The notes under the pieces are model-generated. The model was not told where the DNA came from, ran no database searches, and saw nothing but the letters and a program-made list of their open reading frames with translations. DNA of 47,217 nucleotides from a virus. The stretch lies in the IMG/VR virus record IMGVR_UViG_3300047560_000769, positions 1-47,217 of that record. The stretch is one strand, 5' to 3'. Both the position numbers and the translations under genes were made by a program. This document shows positions 1-33,000 of the stretch, piece by piece (positions within the stretch are counted from its first letter, which is position 1; each line of letters opens with the position of its first letter).

Positions 1-1160
1 TCGCTTGAAAAACTTAATGCACCAGCTACACCTGAAAATCTCTTAGATGCTTGTACAGCACCTTCAGTTGCTTCTGCCGAATACCGCATTGTTTCAGCAG
101 CCTTACCTCCCCGCTTACCTACATCTGCCATACCTTGACTTGCTTTAGCAACTTCTGGACTTAATGCTTGCAACTTTTGTGCTGCTTCAGTCATTGGGGG
201 CAATCCCATTGCTTGTGATTTAAATAAGTCTTCTCCTGCTTTGCCGAATTTAGCACTCATTTCAGCAAGGCCTTTATCATAGGCAGCACGTTGCTCTTCG
301 GTCATGCCCATTTTCATTTGCTCATATGCGGCATTGGCGTTGGCTTGTTTTAATGCTTTTTCTTGTTCTTCTCTGCTTTTACCTGTGATAGCCGCAAGTG
401 CATCTAATTGTGTTAGATATTCTGATGCACCTTTTGTAATTGCGGCAGTATTTTGCATTTCTTGTTTTGTTCTTGCGCCAGTGTTTGAAAGATAATTTGC
501 TAGACCTTCATTTACCTGCTCGGATGTATAACCTAGTGCTCTTAAATTATCTCCTGCTTCACTTTTTAACAGTGAATTACTTAACATAGTAAATGATCTT
601 GCACCTTGTTCTGCTGTTCCTCCCATCTTTGCAAAGGATTCGCTGTGGCGTTTCATCATTCCGACAAATTGATCTAACGTCATGTATGTGTTTGCCGCAG
701 CCATTCTCATGTCCGTTAGACTACCGCCGAAACTTACACCAGCATCAGTAATCTTTTGGTATGCCGCTAGGTTCTCTTCTTGAAATTGAGCAACCTTTCT
801 AAACACACCCATTACCATACCGGCAGCACCTGGTAATTTTTCAAATGCCGCAAATAAGTCGCTAGAGTTAGAAGTTCCTTTAATTAGTGTTCCAGTTAAT
901 TGAACTATTCCGGATGCAAGGGCAGACAAGTTTGCTTTGGTCTTTGCAATCTCATCAGTTAATTGTTTTTGTTTTTCATTGGCTGCTTTAACTGTAGCAG
1001 GATCTACTCCGGCAGCTGCCGCAGTACCAGCAGTTTTTGAAGCGGCGCCCATGCCTCCTTGCGCCTTTACTGCCGCAAGTAATTGTTTTAACGTTGCTTC
1101 AGTTGCCGCGTTATTGAGTTCTACTACTTCGTTGCCTATTGATCCGGTGACGTCTGCCAT
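1..1160 (-). CDS. Probable tail tape-measure / large virion structural protein (3' end outside window)
   Basis: An uninterrupted minus-strand frame runs from an ATG at 1160 off the left edge, so only the N-terminal 386 or so residues are visible. It begins MADVTGSIGNEVVELNNAA and is Ala/Gln/Glu/Lys-rich, mostly predicted helix, with no Cys and no clear enzymatic motif. Long, helical, low-complexity proteins of this type in tail clusters are usually tape-measure or internal virion proteins. That assignment is inferred from composition and from its position beside gp26/gp51, the putative tail-assembly chaperones. A GATAAATA late-promoter match lies about 55 bp upstream at 1215-1222, divergent from the one driving gp26. 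The total length cannot be judged. Confidence 0.6.
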   Translation of the reverse strand, partial: MADVTGSIGNEVVELNNAATEATLKQLLAAVKAQGGMGAASKTAGTAAAAGVDPATVKAANEKQKQLTDEIAKTKANLSALASGIVQLTGTLIKGTSNSSDLFAAFEKLPGAAGMVMGVFRKVAQFQEENLAAYQKITDAGVSFGGSLTDMRMAAANTYMTLDQFVGMMKRHSESFAKMGGTAEQGARSFTMLSNSLLKSEAGDNLRALGYTSEQVNEGLANYLSNTGARTKQEMQNTAAITKGASEYLTQLDALAAITGKSREEQEKALKQANANAAYEQMKMGMTEEQRAAYDKGLAEMSAKFGKAGEDLFKSQAMGLPPMTEAAQKLQALSPEVAKASQGMADVGKRGGKAAETMRYSAEATEGAVQASKRFSGVAGALSFSS

Positions 1161-1234: not shown

Positions 1235-2104
1235 ATGCTTCAACCAGTACCACAAACACAAAACCCATTAGCCTCTTTTATGAGGCAACCGAAGATCTAT
1301 ATCAAGTTACCTAGTAACGGAGAATATTGGCCGGCTGGAAGTTTAGCAGTTTCTGAAACAGGTGAATATCCAGTTTATTCTATGACTGCCAAAGATGAAC
1401 TTATGCTCAAGGTCCCGGATGCTGTAATGAGTGGACAAGCTGTAGTTGATGTAATCCAACACTGTGTTCCTAACATTAAAAATGCTTGGCAAATGCCAAA
1501 TATTGATTTGGATGTTGTCCTTATTGCTATTCGTATGGCAACCTATGGTGAGAAGATGACTACTCCTATTACATTCGGTGATGATATTGAACTAGAATAT
1601 ACTATAGATCTTCGAACAGTTATGGATGAATTATATTCTAAAGTAATATGGGATCCAGCGGTTTCTATAGGTCCAGACCTTACTGTATTTGTTAAACCAA
1701 TGACTTACAAACAAATCAGTGAAAGTGCATTAAAAACATTTGAAACCCAGAAGATTATGCAAGTTGTTAATAACGAATCTATCAGTGAAGATGAAAAATT
1801 AAAACTATTTAGAGAAAGTTTTAATAAACTAACTGATATTACATTAGGTGTAGTTCAAACAAGCATTACAAGAATTGATTCTACTGAAGGTAGCACAGAT
1901 AATCCTAGATTTATTAAAGAGTTTATTGAAAATATAGATAAAGATATGTTCAATACAATACAAGAGCACCTAGATAGACTTAGAGAAAATAACACAATCA
2001 AACCAATTCAGGTACCTGTAACAGAAGAAATGAAAGCTAAAGGATATCAAGGCGAAACTGTAGAAGTTCCAATGGTATTTGATCCTGCAACTTTTTTCGC
2101 ATAA
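1235..2104 (+). CDS. 26: gp26-like baseplate hub assembly protein / putative tail assembly chaperone
   Basis: The protein has 289 residues. The N-terminal region (IYIKLPSNGEYWP, then YSMTAKDELMLKVPDA and QHCVPNIKNAW) is the characteristic start of the T4-phage gp26 baseplate family. T4 gp26 is 208 residues, so this version is somewhat longer. In T4 it is needed for baseplate hub assembly and sits directly before gene 51, as here. A late promoter and a CGGAGA ribosome binding site precede the ATG. The last sense codons are ACT TTT TTC GCA followed by TAA, and T TTT TTC at 2092-2098 is a classic -1 slippery heptamer. Slippage there would join the gp51-like frame and give a 364-residue product. 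Confidence 0.85.
   Translation: MLQPVPQTQNPLASFMRQPKIYIKLPSNGEYWPAGSLAVSETGEYPVYSMTAKDELMLKVPDAVMSGQAVVDVIQHCVPNIKNAWQMPNIDLDVVLIAIRMATYGEKMTTPITFGDDIELEYTIDLRTVMDELYSKVIWDPAVSIGPDLTVFVKPMTYKQISESALKTFETQKIMQVVNNESISEDEKLKLFRESFNKLTDITLGVVQTSITRIDSTEGSTDNPRFIKEFIENIDKDMFNTIQEHLDRLRENNTIKPIQVPVTEEMKAKGYQGETVEVPMVFDPATFFA
2092..2098 (+). other. Candidate programmed -1 ribosomal frameshift site (T TTT TTC)
   Basis: In the gp26 frame the codons are ACT TTT TTC GCA TAA. The heptamer fits X XXY YYZ and lies just before the gp26 stop. After a -1 slip reading continues CGC ATA AGG CTT TTG TAC, directly in frame with the gp51-like ORF, which has no ATG of its own. Weak potential downstream pairing is visible: TAAGGC 2102-2107 with GCCTTA 2170-2175, and AACAAC 2119-2124 with GTTGTT 2140-2145. 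Confidence 0.55.
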
Positions 2105-2109
2105 GGCTT

Positions 2110-2328
2110 TTGTACCTCAACAACGATGGCATTGACAAAGTTGTTAAAGAGTACGAAAGAGATACAAAGGCCTTAAGAAAAGACTTAATGACACTGTGCT
2201 GGTACATGCGCGGCGGCATGACTTTATCTGAGTCGTTTTTATTAACACCCGAAGACCGAGAAACTATTGGCCAAATAGTCGAAGACAATCTTAAAATGAC
2301 TAAAGAATCGGGACTACCGTTCTTTTAA
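2110..2328 (+). CDS. 51: gp51-like small baseplate hub assembly protein (TTG start or frameshift extension of gp26)
   Basis: The 72 codons from TTG at 2110 encode a helical, charged protein with the segment LMTLCWYMRGGMTLSESFLL followed by EDRETIGQIVEDNL. This resembles the short proteins annotated as gp51 baseplate hub assembly catalyst next to gp26 in T4-like phages of marine cyanobacteria. T4 gp51 itself is 249 residues, so the name rests on position and recalled family resemblance. There is no ATG or GTG near the 5' end. The only upstream AGG is 3 nt from the TTG, too close for a good ribosome binding site. Expression as a -1 frameshift extension of gp26 from 2092-2098 explains this better. 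Its stop overlaps the stop of the convergent minus-strand gene. Confidence 0.6.
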   Translation: MYLNNDGIDKVVKEYERDTKALRKDLMTLCWYMRGGMTLSESFLLTPEDRETIGQIVEDNLKMTKESGLPFF

Positions 2329-3218
2329 ATTGTCATTTCTAAGAACTTACTTCTAAATCCTACTATCTTATTTTCGTTGTAGCCTCGAACAAGATTTGGA
2401 TTGTCATCTTCTTCTGGTGGTGTATTAGGTGCTAATTGATTTGCCATCTGATTAAATGCACCTGAGCCTGCTGCCGCTTGTTGTGCCTTAGCCGCTCTTG
2501 CTTCACGTTTACGAATAGCATTAGGCGTTTGACTTAATTGACCTGCAACTTTCCCCCCAGTGCGTGTTTTTGTAGCAGGTTCTGCAGGTGGAGTGGTTGC
2601 TGTTGCATCTGCAGGTGGAGTGGTTGCTGTTGCATCTGCAGGTGGAGGATTTGGTTCTCCTGTTTGTGGATTGAATCCGTATGGTGCTTTCTCTTTGCCA
2701 GCAGCTCTGTTTTTTGCTGCCATTGCCGCATTAGCAACTCCCGTCTGAGGATCATATGCTGGCTTTTCGTCTTCTGGAGCAGCTGGTTCAGCAGGGGGAG
2801 TATTAATTGATTTTTCTAATTCACCTGCTAGTTCTTTTTTCTGGTCTGGATTTAATTTTCCAATCGATGCTTTTAATTGCTCTAGATCTGCTCCACTTGC
2901 TGGCTCAGGTGCTGGTGCTGGACTTCCTTGTGGTGCTGGTGCTGGACTTCCTTGTGGTGCTGGTGCTGGACTTCCTTGTGGTGCTGGTTGGCTACCATCG
3001 GCGGTGTCGTCTCCTGCCATAGTAGCTTTAGTAGCATCCCATCCTTGTTTTACACCTTGTCCGAAATTTCTTACAGTATCAACAGCGCCACGAGCCACAC
3101 CGCCAACTGCTTTGCCTGCAACATTGGCTCCTTTTGCTATTGCTTTTCCTACACCTGCAAGACTAATCTCATCTAACTGGTTTTGACTTTCAACAATAAT
3201 AAGTTCATTAATCTTCAT
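2325..3218 (-). CDS. Pro/Ala-rich repeat protein, unassigned (possible virion protein)
   Basis: The protein has 297 residues, with ATG at 3218 preceded by an AGGAAA ribosome binding site. The N-terminus (MKINELIIVESQNQLDEISL) leads into a small Gly/Ala/Lys helix region (residues 20-60). Then come three tandem copies of PAPQGSPA-type repeats, a short helical patch around residues 110-137, two PPADATATT repeats, and a basic stretch near residue 240. The repeats point to a flexible linker. No catalytic motif is seen. It follows the 466-residue gene by 12 bp and probably shares its late transcript, so an accessory virion or assembly role is likely but unproven. It overlaps the gp51-like gene tail to tail by 4 bp. 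Confidence 0.75.
   Translation of the reverse strand: MKINELIIVESQNQLDEISLAGVGKAIAKGANVAGKAVGGVARGAVDTVRNFGQGVKQGWDATKATMAGDDTADGSQPAPQGSPAPAPQGSPAPAPQGSPAPAPEPASGADLEQLKASIGKLNPDQKKELAGELEKSINTPPAEPAAPEDEKPAYDPQTGVANAAMAAKNRAAGKEKAPYGFNPQTGEPNPPPADATATTPPADATATTPPAEPATKTRTGGKVAGQLSQTPNAIRKREARAAKAQQAAAGSGAFNQMANQLAPNTPPEEDDNPNLVRGYNENKIVGFRSKFLEMTI
2584..2647 (-). repeat. 27-bp in-frame tandem repeat (two copies plus a partial)
   Basis: Two identical 27-bp units occupy 2584-2610 and 2611-2637, followed by a 10-bp partial copy. The unit length is a multiple of three, so copy-number change would keep the frame. It encodes the PPADATATT linker. Confidence 0.9.
2908..2979 (-). repeat. 24-bp in-frame tandem repeat (three copies)
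   Basis: Three identical 24-bp units lie at 2908-2931, 2932-2955 and 2956-2979, with a partial fourth after them. They encode the PAPQGSPA linker repeats. The identity at nucleotide level suggests recent slippage or recombination. Confidence 0.9.
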
Positions 3219-3230
3219 GTGTATTTCCTG

Positions 3231-4631
3231 TTACGCTTTTAATAGAGTAAGAATTTCTTTTTGTGCAGCCGGATCTAATTTTTGAATCTGAGCTAGCATA
3301 TCTTTAATATTTACCACAGCACCAGTCTTTGAAGTATCTGCAGGATCTAATGTAGGTTCTACCTTGCCGGCCGGTTCTGGTAGTCCCATGTCTGTGAAAG
3401 ATTTTGAAATAACTGCTGGATCTACGCCGGCACCTTGTAAAATCTTTGCAATCGCATCACTGTCGGTTGGGCTTCCTGCTTTTTCCCATGCTTTTTGCAA
3501 CTTACTTGCATCTACCTTATTGCCTGTTATGCCAAATAATTCATTTAATTGACTTTCGGATACAGGAGCTGCCTTAGGTGCTGGTTGCCCGCCCGCTGCT
3601 GCCGTTCCGGCAGCACCACTCATTGCTGTTGCTGCCTGTGTTAGCCCTTTGATCCACTGCATTAGACTGTCATTTGAAAGTGCTATATCTCTTGCTGCCG
3701 CACCAGCTGCCTGCATCTGACTCTTGTAATCAGCTGAATGAATTAGTCGTCCAATATCTTTAAGTGTGTCAAATGCAGAAGTATCACCTTGTTGTATCTG
3801 TGTTATTGCTTCTCTAATTGAAGCCGCAGTATCGTGATCAACAGTGACATTGAACCCTTGAGTCATTTGGTCCCATTCTGTACCGCCCATGGCAATTCTT
3901 TTAGTTGCTTTGTAGGTAATTTTTTCGAGTCCTGTGTCACCAATCGGAACCGAATTAGCTCGAAGACCAGCTGCCCATTCACCTATCTTAGCCATAGCAC
4001 CTGCGGTGATTCCTGCAACTAAACCTGCTGTAGCGCCACGGCCAACAGCGGTAGATAGTTTTTCGTTCTTTAATAAACGGTCAGCAATGTTAATAATACC
4101 AGTTGCAACACCGGCGCCTGTGCCTACTGCCAGTGCTCCTGCGGCAACTCCTCCTGCAAGTGCTACTCCGGCTGCTGCGGCTGCTGATGCCGCAATACCT
4201 AATAAGAATTTTTGTGTTTTAGGATTCTTATCTGCAAATTCTTTATACTTTGATAGAGCTTTGGCTAAATCGGGATGCTTGGCTGCAACACTACTTTTAA
4301 TTTCTTCCCACTTCTGATCAAATGCTTGAACAGGACCGCTACTCTGTAACATTCCGCCAAATTTATTAAACCATACATCGCTTATTTTATTTGCCGCACC
4401 TTTAACGGCATCCATTCCCTTCCCTAACGCACTCCTTCCGGCACCTTGCTCTATACTCTTGAATAATTGTTGAATCTGTGTTGGATCTATTGCTACTTCA
4501 CATAGAACAGGGTGTATTTCTTTTTCCCATGTTTGGAAGTAGGTATCACCTTGTCCAATACTTTCGAAAATACTTCTTCGGTCAGAGTTATCTATTTCAT
4601 CTAGTTTTTTAAGTAAGGAATTTAGATCCAT
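3231..4631 (-). CDS. Ala/Gly-rich membrane-like structural protein, unassigned
   Basis: The protein has 466 residues from ATG at 4631. After a charged N-terminal region it has a long Ala/Gly/Val hydrophobic stretch (about residues 142-180) and a second one (about 198-214), which could form transmembrane or tightly packed hairpins. The C-terminal half carries amphipathic helices and a Pro/Ala linker around residue 350. There is no signal peptide and no catalytic motif. A TATAAATA late promoter lies 26 bp upstream, so it is made late. Glycine-zipper-like proteins of this kind in phages are candidates for internal virion or membrane-penetration proteins, which is an inference only. It leads a two-gene unit with the repeat protein. 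Confidence 0.75.
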   Translation of the reverse strand: MDLNSLLKKLDEIDNSDRRSIFESIGQGDTYFQTWEKEIHPVLCEVAIDPTQIQQLFKSIEQGAGRSALGKGMDAVKGAANKISDVWFNKFGGMLQSSGPVQAFDQKWEEIKSSVAAKHPDLAKALSKYKEFADKNPKTQKFLLGIAASAAAAAGVALAGGVAAGALAVGTGAGVATGIINIADRLLKNEKLSTAVGRGATAGLVAGITAGAMAKIGEWAAGLRANSVPIGDTGLEKITYKATKRIAMGGTEWDQMTQGFNVTVDHDTAASIREAITQIQQGDTSAFDTLKDIGRLIHSADYKSQMQAAGAAARDIALSNDSLMQWIKGLTQAATAMSGAAGTAAAGGQPAPKAAPVSESQLNELFGITGNKVDASKLQKAWEKAGSPTDSDAIAKILQGAGVDPAVISKSFTDMGLPEPAGKVEPTLDPADTSKTGAVVNIKDMLAQIQKLDPAAQKEILTLLKA

Positions 4632-20400: not shown

Positions 20401-21001
20401 AAGAATAGACCCAAGCAAATCGAATATCATTGATATCTATATTTTAACAACAGGCTATGATAATGATGTTAGAAGTTGGTTGGCCGGAAATATATCTTCG
20501 GAGCCAGTCCCCCCAACGAGCTTTAGTTTAGAACAGAATTACTCTAGTAACTTAGAACCTATCAAAGCAATTAGTGATGAAATCATTTTTAATTCTGTAA
20601 AATATAAAGTATTATTTGGCAGCAAGGCAACGACAAATCTTCAAGCTAAATTTAAAGCTGTGAAGAATCCTGATCGACCTACAACAGACAATGATTTAAA
20701 AACAAGAATACTAACAGCAATTAATGAATTTTTTGTTTTACAGAACTGGGATTTTGGTCAGAGTTTTTATTTTAGCGAACTTTCTACCTATGTTATGAAC
20801 CAACTTTCACCTGACATAACTAACTTTGTTATCACTCCTAAGAGTGTAGGAAGTTTCGGAAGTCTATATGAAGTTGCTTGTCAATCAAATGAAATCTTTA
20901 TTAGTGGTGCCGAAATCGCCGATATAGAAATCATTGATGCCATAACTGCATCTCAATTAAAATCAACATCGGCAATTGTAACAACAACTAGTGGAACCTA
21001 A
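17438..21001 (+). CDS. 6: gp6-like baseplate wedge protein
   Basis: The protein has 1187 residues against 660 in T4 gp6. The N-terminal 130 residues carry the typical gp6 pattern: DFKSYDFETLRRTMISYLQE, DFNDFIDSSEYVALIDLIAY, LGQNLSFRIDLNARENFLET and AQRRDSILRLAQLISYKPKR. The C-terminal region (NDLKTRILTAINEFFVLQNW with GQSFYFSELSTYVMNQ) is the conserved end seen in the gp6/baseplate J-like fold. The middle 900 residues are mainly beta and enlarged. gp6 forms the dimer ring that connects the six wedges. No ribosome binding site is obvious. The stop is followed by one base and then the ATG of the giant gene. Confidence 0.9.
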   Translation: MIPSTNTQLLVGEDWKKIYQSFRNADFKSYDFETLRRTMISYLQENYPEDFNDFIDSSEYVALIDLIAYLGQNLSFRIDLNARENFLETAQRRDSILRLAQLISYKPKRNTPASGFLKVTAISTTESVIDSNGVNLANTTIGWNDPTNPNWYQQFINIINSAMSSTFGDPLNRDTVGGILTEQYALNSNTADVPLFGFSKNINGVNMGFEIAPCSFNGKTYIYENAPAPASAFTMVYKNDNRGSGSAETGFFAMFKQGSTSMVQFSLDNPVPNEIIGINTPDINDTDVWLWQLDKNGNFTTLWTDVPSVNNGSNNVIYNSLNNNLRTIYAITPRENDQIDLNFADGIFGDLPKGQFRLFYRQSNGKTYIIKPEQMSGIVIQVPYTNADGQANTLQLTLSLQYTVNNSSGPETNASIQTNAPQLYYTQNRMITGEDYNIAPLKAGPDILKIKSVNRSSSGLSKYFDISDVTGGYGKTNIFANDGVLYQEEIEEYFEFEFTSRNQVLAVIKNSLAPIISSSGLRSFYIEKFSNPDLYSLNLTWNEVNKTPGQSRGYFTNSLGVTEVGPYSEQNLRYVEPGALVKFDPPDGYYFDEGNNLVAVPTSGNIPSTGRDYLWAMVYQVIGDGGNGGAGALDDGTGPIIFATRVPQDAIPVEVVPKYVHSLNYSIETEIANFCMNQRNFGLTISSDTRTWDIILNSNLNLTDSFSLTNQGNVEDVGLDSSWVVAFVWTGKNYKVRYRNLYFVFESEAETAFHVDDTSVNYDFTTNTVIKDKIDVLSINSKPKTTTMSTWLFGAGVPSNSTGNNGDHYLNTTASSDNVWTKIRGKWIKGSNFSGNLVTDYSWQVDGSIVEADGYIQPKKVKVSFYDFNNTGQIEDPDAFKSIVNPDYLDPIDGFKKNFVFFKKLSDGLRYELTTGIVSLENEADFSTYKLSNTVNDGDLFYFYDASINVVKYWNEITQQLIYTDQYFARVGRSGLSFHYIHNSGNNRRIDPSKSNIIDIYILTTGYDNDVRSWLAGNISSEPVPPTSFSLEQNYSSNLEPIKAISDEIIFNSVKYKVLFGSKATTNLQAKFKAVKNPDRPTTDNDLKTRILTAINEFFVLQNWDFGQSFYFSELSTYVMNQLSPDITNFVITPKSVGSFGSLYEVACQSNEIFISGAEIADIEIIDAITASQLKSTSAIVTTTSGT

Positions 21002-21002
21002 C

Positions 21003-24000
21003 ATGGCGGATATTAAAAAATCAGTTAATCTATTACCAGAGTATCTAAGAACTGATAAGAATTCTAAATTTTTATCTAGCACAATCGATCAACTTATTCA
21101 AACTCCTCAAGTTGAAAGAATTAACGCCTATGTCGGTTCGAAAATAACACCTAATTTTGATTCAACTACTGATTTTTATCTAGATGAAACATCTTCATTA
21201 AGAAATAATTACAGTTTAGAACCTGCTCTTATTTTTAGAGATAGTGCAGGCAATGTTACTGGCGCTGTTGCGTATAACGACCTGGTCAACGAGTTAGGAG
21301 TTCAGGGAAGTAAAACAAGCAATCTTGACACCTTATTTCGTTCTAAATTTTATTCTTATGATCCATTAATTGATTGGGACAAGTTAGTAAACTTTACAAA
21401 TTACTATTGGATGCCTGTCGGCCCAGAAGTTATCATCCTTAACGATGAAGATTTAGATGTTAATGATATTATTGGCCAAGAATCGTACACTATGAGTAAT
21501 GGGTATGATTTGAGTAACGGAATGAGGATTGCATTCCTAGATAATACTGTTCAGGTAGAATATCGTAGAAAAGAATTCATTGTTGAAGGTGTAGGTTCAT
21601 CTATTAAATTAGTCGACCTATCCTTATTAAGTTCTGTTGATAGGTTAACAACTGTTTATAATGAAACATTTGATAGTACAGAGTTTGATGATTATCCATT
21701 TGATAGCGATAAGAAATTACCCCTAACACCCGACTATATTACTATTAATCGTGCCAGCCAAGATTTAAATCCGTGGTCTCGATACAATAGGTGGTTTCAC
21801 AAAGAAGTTGTTGAGCAGTCTGCTATAATTGCGACCGGAAAGCCTGCGGCATTAGAAACTATTGAAAGAGCTAAACGACCTATTATTGAGTTTAGGGCCG
21901 GACTCCAACTATACAACTTTGGTGCAGTTGGTATTAGAAATGTTGATCTTATTGATACAGTAACAACCAATGCAATGGGATCAGTGGACGGATCTATTGG
22001 CTATCATGTTGACGGAGTTCTTTTACAACAAGGAAATCGAGTCATTTTCAATGCAGACGAAGACGATTCAGTCAGGGGTAAAATTTATGAAGTTGACTTC
22101 GATCTATCGGGCGATGTTCCTATACTACATCTAATAGAACCCGATGATACGGATCCTAGTTCTATGGATTCTATTGGAGTTGTCTCTGGCAATGATTTCT
22201 ACAGTACCAGTTGGTATTATGACCTAACATCTCGCACTTGGAAATATGCTCAACAGCACGATCAATTAAATCAAGCACCATTATTTGATTTGTTCACTAA
22301 CGACGGTGTTAGCTATACAGAAATTTCTGAATTTAATAGTTTTACAGGAAATAAAGTCTTTGGATATGAAGTAGGAACAGGTTCTGATGATCCTATTTTG
22401 GGATTCCCATTAAAATATAAAAATCAATTAGGAACAGGAAGTTATCTGTTTAAAAACTATTTTATGGAAGATTCTATTAACGTTGTTATTGACAAGATTG
22501 CGACAAATAGATCTACAGCTATAACTTTCTTAAAAATCAATGACTCGTTAGTCAATGTCTGGGCAGAAGCCGTTGATTACCAAATTCCTATTTTAGAGAT
22601 TTATGTAACAACAGAAGATACTTATGAATTTGAAGTGTCTTGTCTTGATAAACCATATAACAGCGGAACTAACCCTATATCCGTAAGAGCATTTGTAGAC
22701 GGAATTGAGATTTCTATTACCACAACGATTACTCCTAGTACAATTACAGTAACATCTAGTGAATTAATATCTGCAAATACTGCTGTTCTAATAAAAGTTT
22801 TATCCGATCTCCCACCTAACCAAAATGGGTTTTATGAAACTCCTATTGGGTTAACAAATAATCCTCTTAACGGAACAGTACCTAGTTTGACTCTTGGCGA
22901 ACTTGGTGACCACTTATCAACAATGGTTAATAAACTTGCTGGATATACCGGCTCTAATCTAAGAGATCTTGACAACTATGCCCGATATGGAACAAGATTA
23001 GTTGTTAATGCTAACCCTATTTCCTTTGCTCAAGTTTTCTTAGGAAAAAAAGAACACAATTTAGTTGATGCAATTAGGCAAGCAGGTGTTCATTATACTC
23101 AGTTTAAATTAAACTTTTTAAATGCAATCTCTTATGCTGATGCAGAACTTTCTCCTAGCGATGCAGTTGACTCTGTAATAAAATTTATTAATAAAGCTAA
23201 GGACCTTAAGGCATTATATCAAAGATCTGATATGTTAGGTTACGGAGAAAATAAAACAGTTCGTTCATTTACTGTTTCTAGTGTGAATAATAAAATTTAC
23301 CCTATTGGTATTCAGTTTGATTTGACACGATTAAGTTTTAATTCTGTTATTGTAAGATTAAATGGAGATCAATTAGTAGCAGGGTATGATTATACGTTTG
23401 ATTACGTTGACGAAACTGTTTCAATCTCCAGTGAGTTAGCAATTGGTGACGTTATTGAAATTGAAGTATATCTTGATACACTTGGTTGTTATATTCCTCC
23501 AACTCCTTCTAAATTAGGATTGTATCCTTCGTTCGTTCCTGAAATATTTGAAGATGATTCTTATGTAGGGGACCCTGTATTATCTATTAGAGGACACGAC
23601 GGTAGTATTTCAAAAGCCTACGGTGATTATAGAGACGACATAATTCTTGAATTAGAAAAAAGAATTTTTAATAATATAAAAGTTTCTTATAACAAAGAAT
23701 TGTTTGATATAGTTGCTACACAGCCCGGTGCATTTAGACAATCTAAATATTTGATAGATGATTTAAACAGTATTCTTGTTGGCGACTTTTCAAAGTGGGC
23801 AGGAATTTATAATATTGATGCAATTACTAATGATTCGTTCGATGACGCAGATCCAAAGACATGGAATTATACCGGAGCTACTTCAATAATTGACAACAGT
23901 CTTGTAAACGGGCATTGGAGAAATCTATTTAAGTTTTATTATGACACTGATCGTCCACATACCCATCCTTGGGAAATGCTAGGATTTTTTAGTCAACCGA

Positions 24001-27000
24001 GCTGGTGGGAAGATTTATATGGGACTGCTCCATACACTTCTGCTAATACTGCTCTATGGCAAGATCTTGCAGATGGAAAAATTAACGGCGTTATTAATCC
24101 GTTGTATGCAAGACCGGGATTATTAAGTATTATTCCTGTAGATGGTTCTGGAAATTTAATAAGTCCTGCCGGTATTGTTACAGAAAATTCTTACCAAGAA
24201 AAACAAGTAAAATGGTCGTTTGGTGATCAAGGCCCTGCTGAAACATCTTGGAGAAGAAGCAGTGCATGGCCGTTTGCAATTAATGCCGCAGCCGCATTAT
24301 TAGACCCATCAACTTATGCCTCAACGTTGTACGATGTGAGCAGAACTTCTATTAACCCGCTAGGACAGGTTTCGTATACAATTGATGATCTGTATTTAGA
24401 TCCTAGAAAGTTGTTTATTGATGGAGAAGATAACACACAAATTGCAGGTTATGGTGTATATGTAGTTGAAAAAGGTAGAAGTAAAAATTTAAATTATATA
24501 GATGAATTACGACAAGATTTAGACTTCTTAAATTCTAACCTATTTCACAAGTTGGGTGGGTTTGCAAGCAAAGAAAAGTTGCAGATCACTATTGACTCTA
24601 TTAACCCAGATTCAACCAGCCCTGGGGTTATACTACCTCCTGAAGATTACTCATTAATTTTAAATTCGAGTAATCCTATTAAGTCTGCAAGAATATCAGG
24701 GGTCATTGTTCAGAAGTCAAATGGAAAGTTTGTTGTAAAGGGATACGACACAACTAATCCTTATTTCGAAATATTTAAACCAATTAAGACTAATGTATCG
24801 GGCGTTGTTAAAGTCGGAGGCATGTCTGAGCATTTCAGTGATTGGTCGAATATTGTAGATAATGGAAATAAAGGATTAAGTTCTGTTGATAAAACGTCTG
24901 CAGAATCTGTAACAACTCGGTACTACAAACAAGGGCAATTAATTCGATATAATAATAGATTTTATAGAGTTAAAGTTGGTCACAATGCCGAATCGACATT
25001 TGATTCGTCACTTTATCAAGTATTGCCCGAGCTTCCTGTAGTAGGAGGAGCTACCGCACAACTTCCTTCTAGATACGAATCTGTAGTAACACAAATCCCC
25101 TATGGCACTGAGTTTACCACTGTTCAAGAAGTGTATGATTTAATTCTTGGATACGGTGCATTTTTAGAAAGTCAAGGATTTATATTCGATGAATTTAATG
25201 GAGACCTCAACGAGGTATTGAATTGGAAATTTGCAGGAAAAGAATTTTTATTCTGGACCACACAAAATTGGGCCAACAATAATCTTATAACTCTTTCACC
25301 GTTTGCAAACTATTTAAAATATAGTTTCCCTAATTCGGTTGTTGACAACATTCTTAATAACAAATACGAATACAGCTTGTTAAAAGCAGATGGTAAACCA
25401 TATCCGATGGATTCGTTCACAATGTCAAGAGATGGAACCGTGTGTTCTATTAAAACAACTGATCAAAATGAAGGTATATTCTTTGCAGTATTAAATGCAG
25501 TTCAGAAAGAACATGCTATGGTGTTTAACAACTATACAATGTTTAATGACATTATATATGATGTTGAAACAGGATACAAACAGAGAAGAATCAAACTATC
25601 CGGGTTCAGAACAAAAAATTGGAATGGCGATCTTTTCAGTCCAGGGTTTGTTTATGATGATGTTAAAATTTCAGATTGGTTAGCAAATGAAATTTATCTT
25701 CCTGGTGATGTAGTTAGGTACAATGGAAGGTATTACGAATCTCTAGAAAAAATTTCTAGAGACACTATCTTTGATTTCAATAAATGGGATCAATTAACAA
25801 GCAAACCTGTTTCTCAATTGTTGCCTAACTTTGATTATAAAATTAATCAATTTGAAGATTTTTATAGCCTAGACATTGACAATTTCGACTTTGGCCAGCA
25901 ACAGCTTGCACAACACCTAACGGGTTATACGCAAAGAACATATTTAAACAGCATTTTTACAAATCCTATTAGTCAGTATAAATTTTATCAAGGATTTATC
26001 AAAGACAAAGGAACTAAAAACGCTATTGATAAATTATCTAAGGCAACACAATTTACTAACAAAGGTGCAGTTTCTTATAAAGAAGAATGGGCATTTAGAG
26101 TCGGTCATTATGGTAGCTTCTTAAAATATAATGAAGTTGAATTTCCATTAACTGAAGGAACAAGTCTAGAAAATCCTTATGTTGTTAAATTTGTAGACTC
26201 TATTCCTAGTGATGCAAATCCGTTAGTTAATTATGTAACATCGTCAACAATGTTGCTAACTCCGTTAGACTTTGTGCCTGCAAATACGTTTGGATCTTAT
26301 GCAGGCACATGGGCTGATAATAATTTAAAGTTAACAACAGCAGGGTATGTTCGACCTGATGATATTACTTCTACAGCATATAATAAAAACAGTTTGTTAG
26401 ATATTGCAAACAACTCTGCAATTCAGAACGGTGACACCATTTGGTTAGGATTTCTAGAAAATGGCGATTGGACAGTTTATAGATACATCAATCAGCTTGC
26501 AAAGGTAACTGGTGTATTTGTTAGTTCACCGGGCATTGATATTACCTTTGTAACCGATGCACATCACGGTCTAAACATAGGTGATGTTGTATCTGTGGTG
26601 AGATTTAATAACCAAGTTAACGGAGTTTATCTAGTTACATCTGTTCCTGAATTAAATCAATTCACAGTTTCGTCAACATTAACAAGTATAGAAAATGAGC
26701 CATTATTATCATATGGTACTCTGTACAAGTTTGAATCAGCTCGATATGCTGACCTTGCATCTGTTGCAAATGTTACAGATTTAATAAAATTGTCAGCAGG
26801 AGATAAAATTTGGGTTGATAGCGGCATTGACGGAAAATGGGCTGTATACGAAAAAATTAAAAATTATGATTCGTTAGTAGTTGATACATCTGACACTCCG
26901 CCCGGACAAAGATATGGTACATCCATTTATGCATCGGATGACACAAATATTGGTCTTGTATCCGAACCAGGATGGAGAACTGATGGCACATTCAATTGGG

Positions 27001-30000
27001 GCCGTGTAAAAGTTTACAATAAAATAAACGGATCCTGGATTGGAAAATATGACTATCTATTAAATTCAAGTCAGAAAACATATTGTAGTATTTCAAGTTC
27101 GACACAATTTGGTTATTCTTTACAGTACGACCAACATAAGAAATTATATATTACAGGTGCACCTGAAGCAACGTATATTAGATCTGCATTAACATCTGGT
27201 ACCGTTGTTCTTAGCACAGGCACAGGAACAGTTAAGTCATTTGTAAAAGAAGGACTTGTTAAGATTTCAAGCAGAAATGAGGACTTTAGCAGTCAATATG
27301 TTGACCTAGTATTAGTTAATCCATATGCTACTAGTTCTTTGTTAGCAACAGGAGCAAGATTTGGTCACTCGATTTATATAGATCAAGTTCCTGCTAATAC
27401 ATCTACATCGATGTTGGTAGGAGCACCTGGCGTTGGCACTGGTGCGGTTTATGCATATCAGATTTCTTTGAATGAAACATCAGAAGTAACTACAGCATCT
27501 ATTGTAGTACACTCTGCAGGATTAGTTGTTAATTCGACATCATCAGTTTCTCTAGCAACCGGCAGTCAATGGGGACATAAAATTGCAGGATCGAATGACG
27601 GTACAGTTATTGCTATTGGCGCACCGGGATATTCGACATCAACCGGTATTGTTCAAATATTCAATGAAGATTTACAATGGGTTCAGACTATAACTTCTCC
27701 GTTTGGTCAAGATGGAAAGTTTGGATATGATATAGCAGTATCATACACTAATCAATATCTAATAGTTTCTGCCCCCGAATATAAGACTCCTTCAAACCCA
27801 TACGGTAAAGTTGTAGTATATTCTAGAAATGATAATGGTCAGTATGAATTACTACAGATTATCGATAATCCACTGTCAACGGATAGTTTAAAGTTTGGTT
27901 ATTCTTTATCTATTAACAAAGATGAAAATATTTTAGGCATAGGTGCATTAGGAAAAAATAGAAATAAAGAACAAAAATTTGACGAGAGCATTGACGTTGG
28001 CCAAACTACCTTCGACAGCGACTCTACAAAGTTCTATGAAACTATTTTAGATTCTGGTACAGTTTACCTATATAATAAATTAGGAAACTTATTCGTTCAA
28101 GCAGATGAGCTTAATGACGTAAACATACTTCCTGGTAGTCGATATGGAAGTTCTGTTGTAGTTACAAATGACAGTGTATTTGTAGGAGCGCCGTCTGGTC
28201 AGAGCAATACAGATTCAACTGATGCAGACCTGTCTAGATTATATCTATTCAATAGAATTGATGCTAATGCAAATAGTTGGAAACTTTTAAGATCGCAAGA
28301 AGATACAGTGGATGTTGATCCATTAAAGCGTGTTGTATTAATTAACACATTAAAAGAAGAAATAACAGAATATCTTGATATCGTTGATCCTATTAAAGGA
28401 AAGATTGTAGGACTTGCAGAACAAGAGTTAAAATACAAGGCAGCATTTGACCCTGCAACATACTCTATTGGAGTTGCGGGATCTATTGTCAACACAGAAA
28501 CAAATTGGCTTGATGAACACATTGGTGAACTTTGGTGGGACCTAAGCACCGCCAAGTATATGTGGTATGAGCAAGGCGATGAAATTTTTAGAAAAAACAA
28601 TTGGGGGCGGTTATTCCCAGGCGCAAGCATTGACGTTTATGAATGGGTTAAATCAGATCTCCTACCAAGTGAATGGGCTGCATTAGCAGATACAACAGAA
28701 GGACTAACAAAAGGAATCAGCGGTCAACCTAAGTATCCCGATAACAGTATTGTTTCTGTGAAACAGCTTTTTAATAATGTTACTGGTTCATTTGAAAACG
28801 TATATTATTTCTGGGTAAAAAATAAAGTAACATTACCTGGAATTAAAAATAGAAGATTAAGCAGTTATCAGGTTGCAAGTTATATTGCAGATCCTGTTGG
28901 TAATGGATTAAAATGTATTGAGGTTATTTCGCCTAGTGCTGTTGCATTTGCAAACGTGCAACCTTCTTTAATTTCAGACAGAATCACTGCAAATATTGCA
29001 ATTGACAATGGAACAAATATTCCAAAACATACTGAATGGTTGTTATTAAACGAAAATAGCGAAACAAGCATGCCTAATGCTCTTTTAGAGAAAAAGCTAA
29101 TTGACAGTTTACTCGGAAGAGATTCGTTAGGTAACGCTGTTCCTGCTACAAATTTAACCTCTAGAAATAGATACGGAATTGGTATTAGACCTCAACAAAC
29201 TTTATTTAAAAATCGTCTCGAGGCTCTCCGTAATCTAATATCATTTGCAAACTCTGTGCTTGCAGAAAATAGAATTGTAGGTAGTTATTCATTCGAGAAT
29301 CTTAACAAGAAAGAAGAAATACCTGTAGAACTTTCTTATGAATATGATTTAATAGTGGAAGATCTAGATACACTAGATGAAGTCTTCACATTGAATTATG
29401 TCCGTGGACAAGTAGAGTGTTATGCTGATAATGGTAAATTAAAGAGCGTTATTATTACCGATCCTGGGTTTGGATATACCATCGCACCTAAAATTAATAT
29501 CAGTTCTAGCAGTGAAACACCGGCAGAAATTGTAACTGAAATTGATAGTCAAGGACGTATTATTGGAGCTTCGATTGTAAACCCTGGATTTGGATTCGCA
29601 GACGGCCTGTTAACGGCAGAAGTCCGCCCACATACAGTTATTGTTCAGGTCAATAGTGACTATGGTAACAGATGGACTAAACACAGTTTCAATTATGAAA
29701 ACAGAACCTGGGTTAGAACACAGACTCAAAAATATAATACACCTTTATACTGGACAACAATAAATTGGGTTGCTTCTGAATTTAATACGTATAAGTCGAT
29801 ATCATACACAATTGATAATTTATATGACATTGACTCTGTTATTGATATTGTAGCAGGCGAATACGTTAAAGTTAAAAATATTGGCGATGGAAGTTATGCT
29901 GTTTTAGAGCGTGTAAATGATCTAGGCAATTTTATTCCTTACTATAATATTGTTTATAGAGAAAACGGAACAATTCGTTTACTAGACACATTATGGGACT

Positions 30001-33000
30001 ATGATTCTGGAAAGTATTCCTACGATGCAGCCTCATTAGAAGAAACGTTATATGATCAAATTCCTGATATGGAATTATATTATATTCTAATGGCTCTTAA
30101 AAATAATATTTTTATTAACTCATTAAAAGTTAACTGGAATTTATTTTTCTTTACCGCGGTTAAGTTTGCGCTAACAGAACAGAAACTCATTGATTGGGCA
30201 TTTAAAACATCATTTATTAATGTTGTAAATGATGTAGGAACATTAGACCAGCAACCTGTATATAAATTAAACAACGAAAGATACTTTGAAAATTATATCG
30301 AAGAAATTAAGCCATATCGAACAAAAATAAGAAGTTATAGTTCTGTTTACAATAGTACAGATAATGCAAATGTACATTTAACTGACTTTGATTTGCCTTC
30401 CTATTATAATTCGTCTACTGGTGCATTTGAAGTAGTCGAGATAGGAAATCCTTTGTTAGATTCTTATCCTTGGAAATCGTGGAACGACAATTATAAGTTT
30501 TATGTTAGTTCTATTGAAGTTGGACATTCGGGTGCAGGATATACACAAGTTCCTACAGTAATTATAACTGCGGCACCCGGCGATTCCGGATCAGGCGCAG
30601 AAGCTAAAGCATATATTAGGAATGGTGAACTTTATAAAGTTGTAGTTACAAATTCGGGTTCCGGATATGTTGCACCTCCGATTGTTACTATTGACGGTGG
30701 AGGTCCCGGTGTTACCGAAGTTGCTACAGTTTCTGTCATCCTCGCTAATGATAATATACGAAAGAATATTATTGGACTAAAATTTGATAGAACTTCAGTT
30801 GAGGGAGACCTAGTCGATGTTGATGCATACGACGAATGGGTATGCGATGGCAGTTCGGATAAATTTACTCTAACTTGGTTAGCCAATCCTGACAAATCTA
30901 CGATTGTTCCATTGTTGGATGGAAAATTAATATTCTCCACTGATTATACTATTGAATACTATCAGGTAAAAGTGTCACCTGATCAATTCGATGTTGCGGG
31001 TGCATTTCCAAAATCTTCTTGGGACGGTGAGAGGGTGATAGATCATCGTTATAGATATTTTATCAATACTGAAAATAAACAAACACAGGCAGGTTACACA
31101 AGATATTATGCTAAGTTTGTTTTCCTAAATCAAGTTCCGTCTCAAGGGCAGGTATTTAAAATTACCTATAAAAAGAGTTTTGACCTGTACAATGCTGTTG
31201 ATAGGATCGAAAATCTTTACAATCCAACAGACGACATGCCCGGTAATGAATTGTCGTTGCTGATGAAAGGAACAGAATATTCAGAAACACAAGTTACTGG
31301 ATTATTGTTTAATCAGACTCCTAAGTGGGACAGCACCGGAACAGGTTATGATTCTGCACCATGGGGCGATTATCTTTCAAGTTATGCGACAGCAAATTTA
31401 ATTAGATCTGTGGGCATAAGTTCAAATGTATTGACTTTAGATTCAGTTGATGGTATTGAAATAGGACAAACAGTGTCTGTTGCTGGGTCAACATCTACCC
31501 ACTTTAAAGATACCGCAGTTGTAACTGATGTTGATGAAAATAATAATAAAGTGTATCTGGGTGTAATTGATACATCTGAGTTATCTGGATCTATGCAGAT
31601 AACTTCTGCATATTCAACATCGACCTCTTCGGGTTCTATGGTTACTATAAGAAATAGCGGCGGCACCTTTAGAAACTTTATTAAAGCAGGCGACCTTGTT
31701 AAAATCTCCGGAGTAGATAGTTTGTACGGGTATGGTGTTGGCGGAGTCTCTGTTAGAACTCGACCAGTTGCATCTGGAACTATCGGAGTCTACATTGGAC
31801 CTCCTAATTATGCATTCCCGGGTGCAAGACAGGCTACGGGAACAGCAATACGGGAGGAATGGATATTTGACGGGTCAAACTGGGTATTAACAGATAATGT
31901 CACAACAATTCGAATTGATGATCCTGGCATGGGATATACATCGAACCCAACAATATACTTAACGGGTGCAGGTGTTGTATCTCAAGGAAACCTTTTAGCA
32001 TATCTCGATTCTGGGTATAATCAAACAAGGATAGTTGTTACCTGTACTGATAGAACATTACAATTTAGAACAGGTATTGATTTAAGTAGTACAACAACTA
32101 CATATCAACCTTGGGCAAATATAAGTGTCGTTCCAGTAATACAGAGCATTAGCAGTTCTGCTAAATTGTTAGATTCTGTAACACAGGCTATTTCGACTTC
32201 TTATGTTGCATCAATTAAGACATTATCGCCATATGATGATGTTTCTGCGGTTCGAGTGAGATTAGATTCTACAGAAATTGCATCTACTTCTACAAATACC
32301 GTTTGGTATAGTATTATTAGTTCTACAGATTCTAAAGCGGTTGTAGAACTTCGATCCGTTTCCCCAACTACTTCGTCTGAATTAGTTTCTGCAGGTACTG
32401 TTATTGTTGATACATATGGAAATACAGAATTAGAATTCTACGCTTCTAATTCTAATTACAATATTTTAGATACAATTTTAGATGGTGGGGAATCTTTAGG
32501 TTATAGGACAACGGATTATGATGTCGTTGGAAACAACTTCTTAAATCCTCAAGATAGTTATGCACCTGAAGAATGTGTGCCTGGCTATGCAAGAGATTCA
32601 TTGGGAATTAGTGTGTTTACGGTGGGCAATTCGTCGAGCCCTATTGTACAAACTGGTGCATTTGGTGTTCAACGGGGTGAACAAACAACAGCCCGTGCCG
32701 CCGCACTAAAGGGTACACCGGCTGGCATAATGGTTTATGGTAACGGTCAAAAGTTTGACAGAGTAACATCAGTAGGCCAATTTACAACGTCAAATCAGTA
32801 TGTTCTATATAATGATGAGATTACAGTCCCTGCTCAGTCGTTTACAGGCAGGATTGGGTATACAACTATCACTGTTGGATCGGATGTTACTGTAGATAGT
32901 AACTACGTCTCTTCTACTCTTAGTGAGGAAGGTGACACTATAGCAGTATCGGGTCTTATGCAAGTTGACGAAGTTATGAGTGCCTATGTTCTTCTAGATG

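Follow-up and report, generated by a model that had tools for sequence, protein, structure and literature searches.

A conserved -1 frameshift signal with a covarying RNA stem in the predicted tail assembly chaperone gene of T4-related jumbo and environmental phages

We find that a gp26-like gene in a viral genome fragment is very likely a tail assembly chaperone (TAC) gene decoded with a programmed -1 ribosomal frameshift (-1 PRF). Its predicted products are best read as two chaperone isoforms of 289 and 364 amino acids, which would share their N-terminal part. The fragment analysed, here called the window, is the 47,217-nt IMG/VR record IMGVR_UViG_3300047560_000769; it belongs to a structural region of T4-related type in a RaK2-like phage and has genes for a late sigma factor, a baseplate wedge protein, a hub lysozyme and virion structural proteins around the locus. 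Frameshifting is a familiar device, usually left unannotated in this branch of phages.

The gp26-like ORF (1235-2104, plus strand; short form, TAC-N) starts at ATG 1235 and matches the Pfam family T4_baseplate (PF12322; E 2.9e-9, 37.4 bits, above the gathering cut-off of 24.5) and phrog_150 (baseplate hub; E 2.6e-12). An SD-like GGAG is found upstream of gp26 in most relatives. The ORF ends with the codons ACT (2090-2092), TTT (2093-2095), TTC (2096-2098), GCA (2099-2101) and TAA (2102-2104), and thus holds the slippery heptamer T_TTT_TTC at 2092-2098 (T2092 to T2097, then C2098) in its own frame, one codon before the stop, just where a sequence-only reading had placed it. A 6-nt spacer, GCATAA (2099-2104), includes the 0-frame stop and has the same length clade-wide. 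A -1 slip at the heptamer would lead straight into a frame that stays open to the TAA at 2326-2328 (-1 ORF, 2098-2328, plus strand; 76 codons after the slip, the T domain) and would read FF-RIRLL across the junction. The predicted fusion (1235-2328; long form, TAC-NC), put together from these parts, would have 288 + 76 = 364 residues versus 289, as had been proposed. The earlier observation that this frame has only a TTG start and a badly spaced ribosome binding site is also correct: there is no early ATG, and the sole early start, TTG 2110, lies 3 nt after TAAGG. The predicted signal formed by heptamer, spacer and the RNA stem described below has the textbook layout of a -1 PRF site.

The heptamer is conserved far beyond close relatives. 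An IMG/VR search returned 80 loci with 62-81% identity to the gp26-like protein, and a search of a phage collection returned 59 records, mostly jumbo phages, with about 25-32% identity. We assembled a set of 86 sequences from the window, the 80 IMG/VR loci and the phages Phosso, Atu_ph07, PAC2, PA5oct and RaK2. TTTTTTC is in frame near the gp26 end in 86/86 of these; the sequence-only reading had asked whether relatives keep the heptamer, and all 85 do, with no loss seen. Five further jumbo phages, Vibrio phage 2.275.O, SCTP-2, 121Q, BF and XaC1, likewise carry this heptamer and a -1 ORF. Counting these together with Phosso, Atu_ph07, PA5oct and RaK2 as nine named jumbo phages, the heptamer is in frame in 9/9 of them and in 80/80 environmental relatives, some at ∼30% protein identity. 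The 0-frame stop follows one codon past the heptamer in 83 of the 86 sequences and a few codons later in PA5oct, PAC2 and RaK2. At the codon level TTT TTC is invariant among distinct clade members (60/60) and the preceding ACT is nearly so (56/60), while 81% of divergent pairs have matching phenylalanine codons over these genes. The heptamer is thus conserved more than expected by chance. The full motif, made up of the heptamer, the spacer and the two stem arms, is present in at least 120 contigs of IMG/VR. An assembly or sequencing error as the cause of the frame break is ruled out by its presence in 80 separate contigs and in the named genomes.

Beyond the heptamer, the -1 frame shows the signature of coding selection. 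It contains no stop codon in 55/55 distinct sequences, where the other two frames average 7.2 and 7.3 stops; its dN/dS is about 0.26, and substitutions per codon position are 491/201/1086, third positions being the most changed. The -1 ORF runs for 71-77 codons in each of the 86 sequences and for about 70-80 codons overall. A conserved, well placed start for this frame (ATG with a good ribosome binding site), which would have spoken against a frameshift, is found in none of the relatives in the set. The T domain is predicted with moderate confidence to be all-helical (model pLDDT 79). The -1 ORF of the window has no PHROG match of its own, and it shows weak similarity to the T domain of T4 and cyanophages (hhalign probability 27%, pairwise E 6.6e-4, 32 columns). 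In T4 gp51 it probably corresponds to the C-terminal part. The label "gp51-like" given to it earlier can refer to that part and not to gp51 as a whole; the short "gp51" genes of cyanophages are annotated in the same manner.

Codon-level conservation within the -1 ORF peaks in two mutually complementary blocks, AGG CTT TTG and ACA AAA GCC, which lie in the two arms of an RNA stem (5' arm 2105-2118, core 2105-2112 GGCTTTTG; 3' arm 2159-2172, core 2165-2172 CAAAGGCC; both on the plus strand). The stem has 14 bp and a 40-nt loop, and it begins 6 nt past the heptamer, within the distance of about 5-9 nt expected of -1 PRF stimulators; three extra, weaker pairs are possible between 2102-2104 and 2173-2175. 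Pairing is kept in 91% of cells across 57 distinct sequences and drops to 34-54% when the partner is slid by 1-3 columns. Compensatory double changes occur in 8 of the 14 pairs (G-C to A-U, U-A to C-G and other swaps), and we count 46 doubly changed stem cells against 13.5 in shuffled alignments, with 0/500 shuffles reaching as high. Compensated arm pairs are seen, for example, in the environmental loci L038 and L072 (GGCTTTTA with TAAAAGCC), in Phosso (GGCTCTTG with CAAGAGCC) and in Atu_ph07 (GGCTCTTT with AAAGAGCC). The segment from the window folds with a minimum free energy of -24.9 kcal/mol (z -4.5), and the corresponding z-score for the relative L001 is -6.5. The element matches no Rfam family. 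The long stem is not universal, since PA5oct, RaK2, KVP40 and HTVC008M show no significant fold downstream. Covariation establishes the stem as an RNA structure, which would presumably act as the frameshift stimulator, and lends the frameshift reading independent support.

Two other accounts of the broken frame have to be set against these data. The downstream frame could be a separate small gene whose translation starts at TTG 2110 by coupling or reinitiation after the gp26 stop, and annotations of the named phages do list separate small ORFs. The TTG, preceded by TAAGG, is present at codon 4 of the -1 ORF in 51 of 55 distinct sequences, but it is missing in several lineages, having become TTA in several and TTT in Atu_ph07, and the opposite stem arm mostly changes to match. 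Changes at these bases therefore track pairing in the stem and not the upkeep of a start codon. Together with the gap of just 3 nt behind TAAGG, this leads us to reject an independent TTG start as a general explanation. A separate gene would also leave the invariant TTT TTC unexplained, and T4-type gp51 is a fused protein; we regard this account as very unlikely. RNA polymerase slippage on the invariant T6 homopolymer, giving a subset of messages of altered length, seems to us the least probable of all, with hardly any chance of being right: six T residues are a short run for polymerase slippage, the C that follows and the codon phase are invariant as well, and the 6-nt spacing puts the covarying stem where it would meet a ribosome on the slippery site.

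It is also conceivable, if unlikely, that the frameshift is real and its two products serve in the baseplate hub or in hub assembly rather than as chaperones of the lambda G/GT type. Both gp26 and gp51 carry hub or hub-assembly names in PHROGs and GenBank, and our PDB search matched no chaperone fold; neither the gp26 model, which is of low confidence (pLDDT 66), nor the T-domain model (pLDDT 79) found a convincing PDB match, and a BFVD match to a T4-like "baseplate hub assembly protein" (2.7e-14) is expected from homology. Against this, a short and a long form with a C-terminal domain added by frameshifting is a hallmark of tail assembly chaperones, and chaperone genes of T4-like phages were identified by Vladimirov et al. 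(2022), as relayed by papers that cite it. The gp26 homologue of PA5oct lacks the mass-spectrometry note carried by its neighbours, which weakly fits absence from virions.

For the preferred reading, a chaperone gene with a -1 frameshift, the signal itself is strongly supported by comparison; slippage in vivo, its efficiency and the resulting ratio, and the chaperone role are what we infer. Most ribosomes would terminate at TAA 2102 and yield the short, 289-residue gp26. A fraction would pause at the stem, and the two tRNA-Phe would slip in tandem from TTT/TTC to TTT/TTT, whereupon the ribosome would read on in the -1 frame and produce a minor 364-residue isoform with the helical T domain. Many short and few long copies may then bind the tape measure protein, as lambda gpG and gpGT do, with the T domain of the long form recruiting tail-tube subunits. 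In T4, separate genes for a short (26) and a fused long protein (51) would fill the same need.

The gene next to gp26 (3-1160, minus strand) is divergent, as the sequence-only reading had said. Its description there as tape-measure-like is less secure: the gene, which extends past the window edge, matches solely phrog_14121, a virion structural protein family, and we list it as a possible tape measure gene. RaK2 has in the same position a gene annotated as similar to tape measure protein. Genes of the lambda G/GT type lie just ahead of the tape measure gene on the same strand. Here the neighbour is divergent and no proven tape measure gene follows gp26; T4 genes 26 and 51 break this adjacency rule likewise. 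On the other side of the locus, a 297-residue ORF that contains tandem repeats rich in proline (PAPAPQGSPAPAPQGS and PPADATATTPPADATATT) occupies 2325-3218 on the minus strand, its end overlapping that of the -1 ORF tail to tail; it has no PHROG or Pfam match. It is followed by a 466-residue ORF (3231-4631, minus strand) with a central Ala/Gly-rich hydrophobic stretch and no family match above the cut-off. Further along, there is a single ORF of 4584 residues with a GTG start (20991-34745, plus strand), part of which matches the virion structural protein family phrog_10938.

Among T4-related phages we find two arrangements. One PF12322 gene is present in S-PM2, P-SSM2, HTVC008M, Cr30, phiM12, phiW-14, ViI, KVP40, Aeh1, RM378 and the jumbo phages tested, and two are present in T4, RB49, RB43 and Acinetobacter phage 133, which have no TTTTTTC at the gene end; the two-gene form occurs in four of the six Straboviridae examined. 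Of the single-gene phages, S-PM2, P-SSM2, phiW-14, KVP40 and Aeh1 have TTTTTTC in frame at the gene end together with a -1 ORF, and in Cr30 and phiM12 the gene ends in TTTTTTT, again with a -1 ORF. Gene 51 of T4, RB49 and Acinetobacter phage 133 joins a gp26-like part in frame to a T part, the latter ending in motifs such as SNYSLNSISKMIPAER, which resembles the motif HHKYSLAEIENMMPWER of the cyanophage -1 ORF. The -1 ORF of S-PM2 has matches to phrog_634 ("baseplate hub assembly catalyst") and to the C terminus of phrog_150. By its domain make-up, the predicted 364-residue fusion is probably the equivalent of T4 gp51. That T4 and some related phages have a short gene beside a fused one strengthens the analogy to G/GT drawn earlier.

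Several of these genomes differ in detail. Strong local hairpins lie a few nucleotides past TTTTTTC in S-PM2 (L098; z -4.2) and P-SSM2 (L097; z -3.0), possibly an unannotated frameshift stimulator in cyanophages. In the Rhodothermus phage RM378 (L110, about 2000-2245) the gp26 homologue ends in TCC TTT TTT TGG with a T-like ORF in the +1 (= -2) frame, which suggests a different kind of shift. The Salmonella phage ViI (L102, about 2250-2425) has a T-like -1 ORF after a gp26 gene that ends in GAA ATT TTC ATT TAA, with no canonical XXXYYYZ heptamer at that end. We would add, as a speculation with only a modest chance of proving correct, that the long stem is a dedicated element by which this group of T4-related phages tunes its short:long chaperone ratio, perhaps as infection conditions change, and that the frameshift is the ancestral state of the T4 superfamily, replaced in T4 and its closest kin by duplication and fusion. 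Annotations could be corrected accordingly: the small ORFs listed as "hypothetical" behind gp26 of jumbo phages, like the short "gp51" genes of cyanophages, most likely encode the C-terminal portion of a protein made by frameshifting.

Tail assembly chaperones of T4-like phages are reportedly the subject of Vladimirov, Gautam and Davidson (2022, Virology 566:9-15). According to PMC10885494, that study describes some T4-like phages as using a short gene and a fused long gene, and PMC12846349 refers to it on slippery sites of the poly-T kind in the TAC genes of T4-like phages. The earlier remark that no description of such a frameshift was known for T4-type gp26/gp51 therefore has to be qualified for T4-like chaperones at large, where, as far as the citing papers convey, some poly-T sites were known; it appears to stand for the jumbo clade and its stem. 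The general idea is published (Xu 2004; for T4-like phages Vladimirov 2022, as reported by citing papers). The signal in the jumbo and environmental clade and its covarying stem were not found in the literature searched, which covers Vladimirov 2022 through citing papers, and these appear to be new additions. Short cyanophage gp51 proteins with C-terminal similarity had been noted before (PMC3037559). In a major review (PMC5009743), long-tailed phages "except T4" are said to share a conserved G-T frameshift; a frameshift signal and a covarying stem are now seen across many T4-related jumbo and environmental phages.

Compared with known systems, the window shares the gp26 family PF12322 with T4, whose gp51 combines a gp26-like part and a T domain just as the predicted fusion does, but T4 has two genes in divergent positions and lacks a slippery site, where the window has one gene and a predicted frameshift. 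The cyanophages, KVP40 and Aeh1 resemble the window in their in-frame TTTTTTC at the gp26 end and their -1 ORF; in these phages an ATG often follows soon after the slip, whereas the window has none early in the -1 frame, and S-PM2 and P-SSM2 have a short local hairpin just downstream in place of a long stem with a 40-nt loop. Vandenendeviridae and Andersonviridae are different families, and no covarying stem is reported for their TAC locus in the passages of PMC12846349 consulted; there too TAC-N ends with a poly-T site, in their case GTTTTT, and the -1 frameshift is conserved (PMC12846349). No lambda gpG-type family is among the family matches of gp26. The window differs from lambda in its slippery site TTTTTTC and covarying stem, in its larger gp26 and in the divergent orientation of the neighbouring structural gene. 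In both, a short form would be accompanied by a longer one that arises when ribosomes slip by -1 shortly before the first frame ends and read on into a C-terminal T domain, as described for lambda gpG/gpGT (Levin 1993; Xu 2004, as reviewed in PMC5009743).
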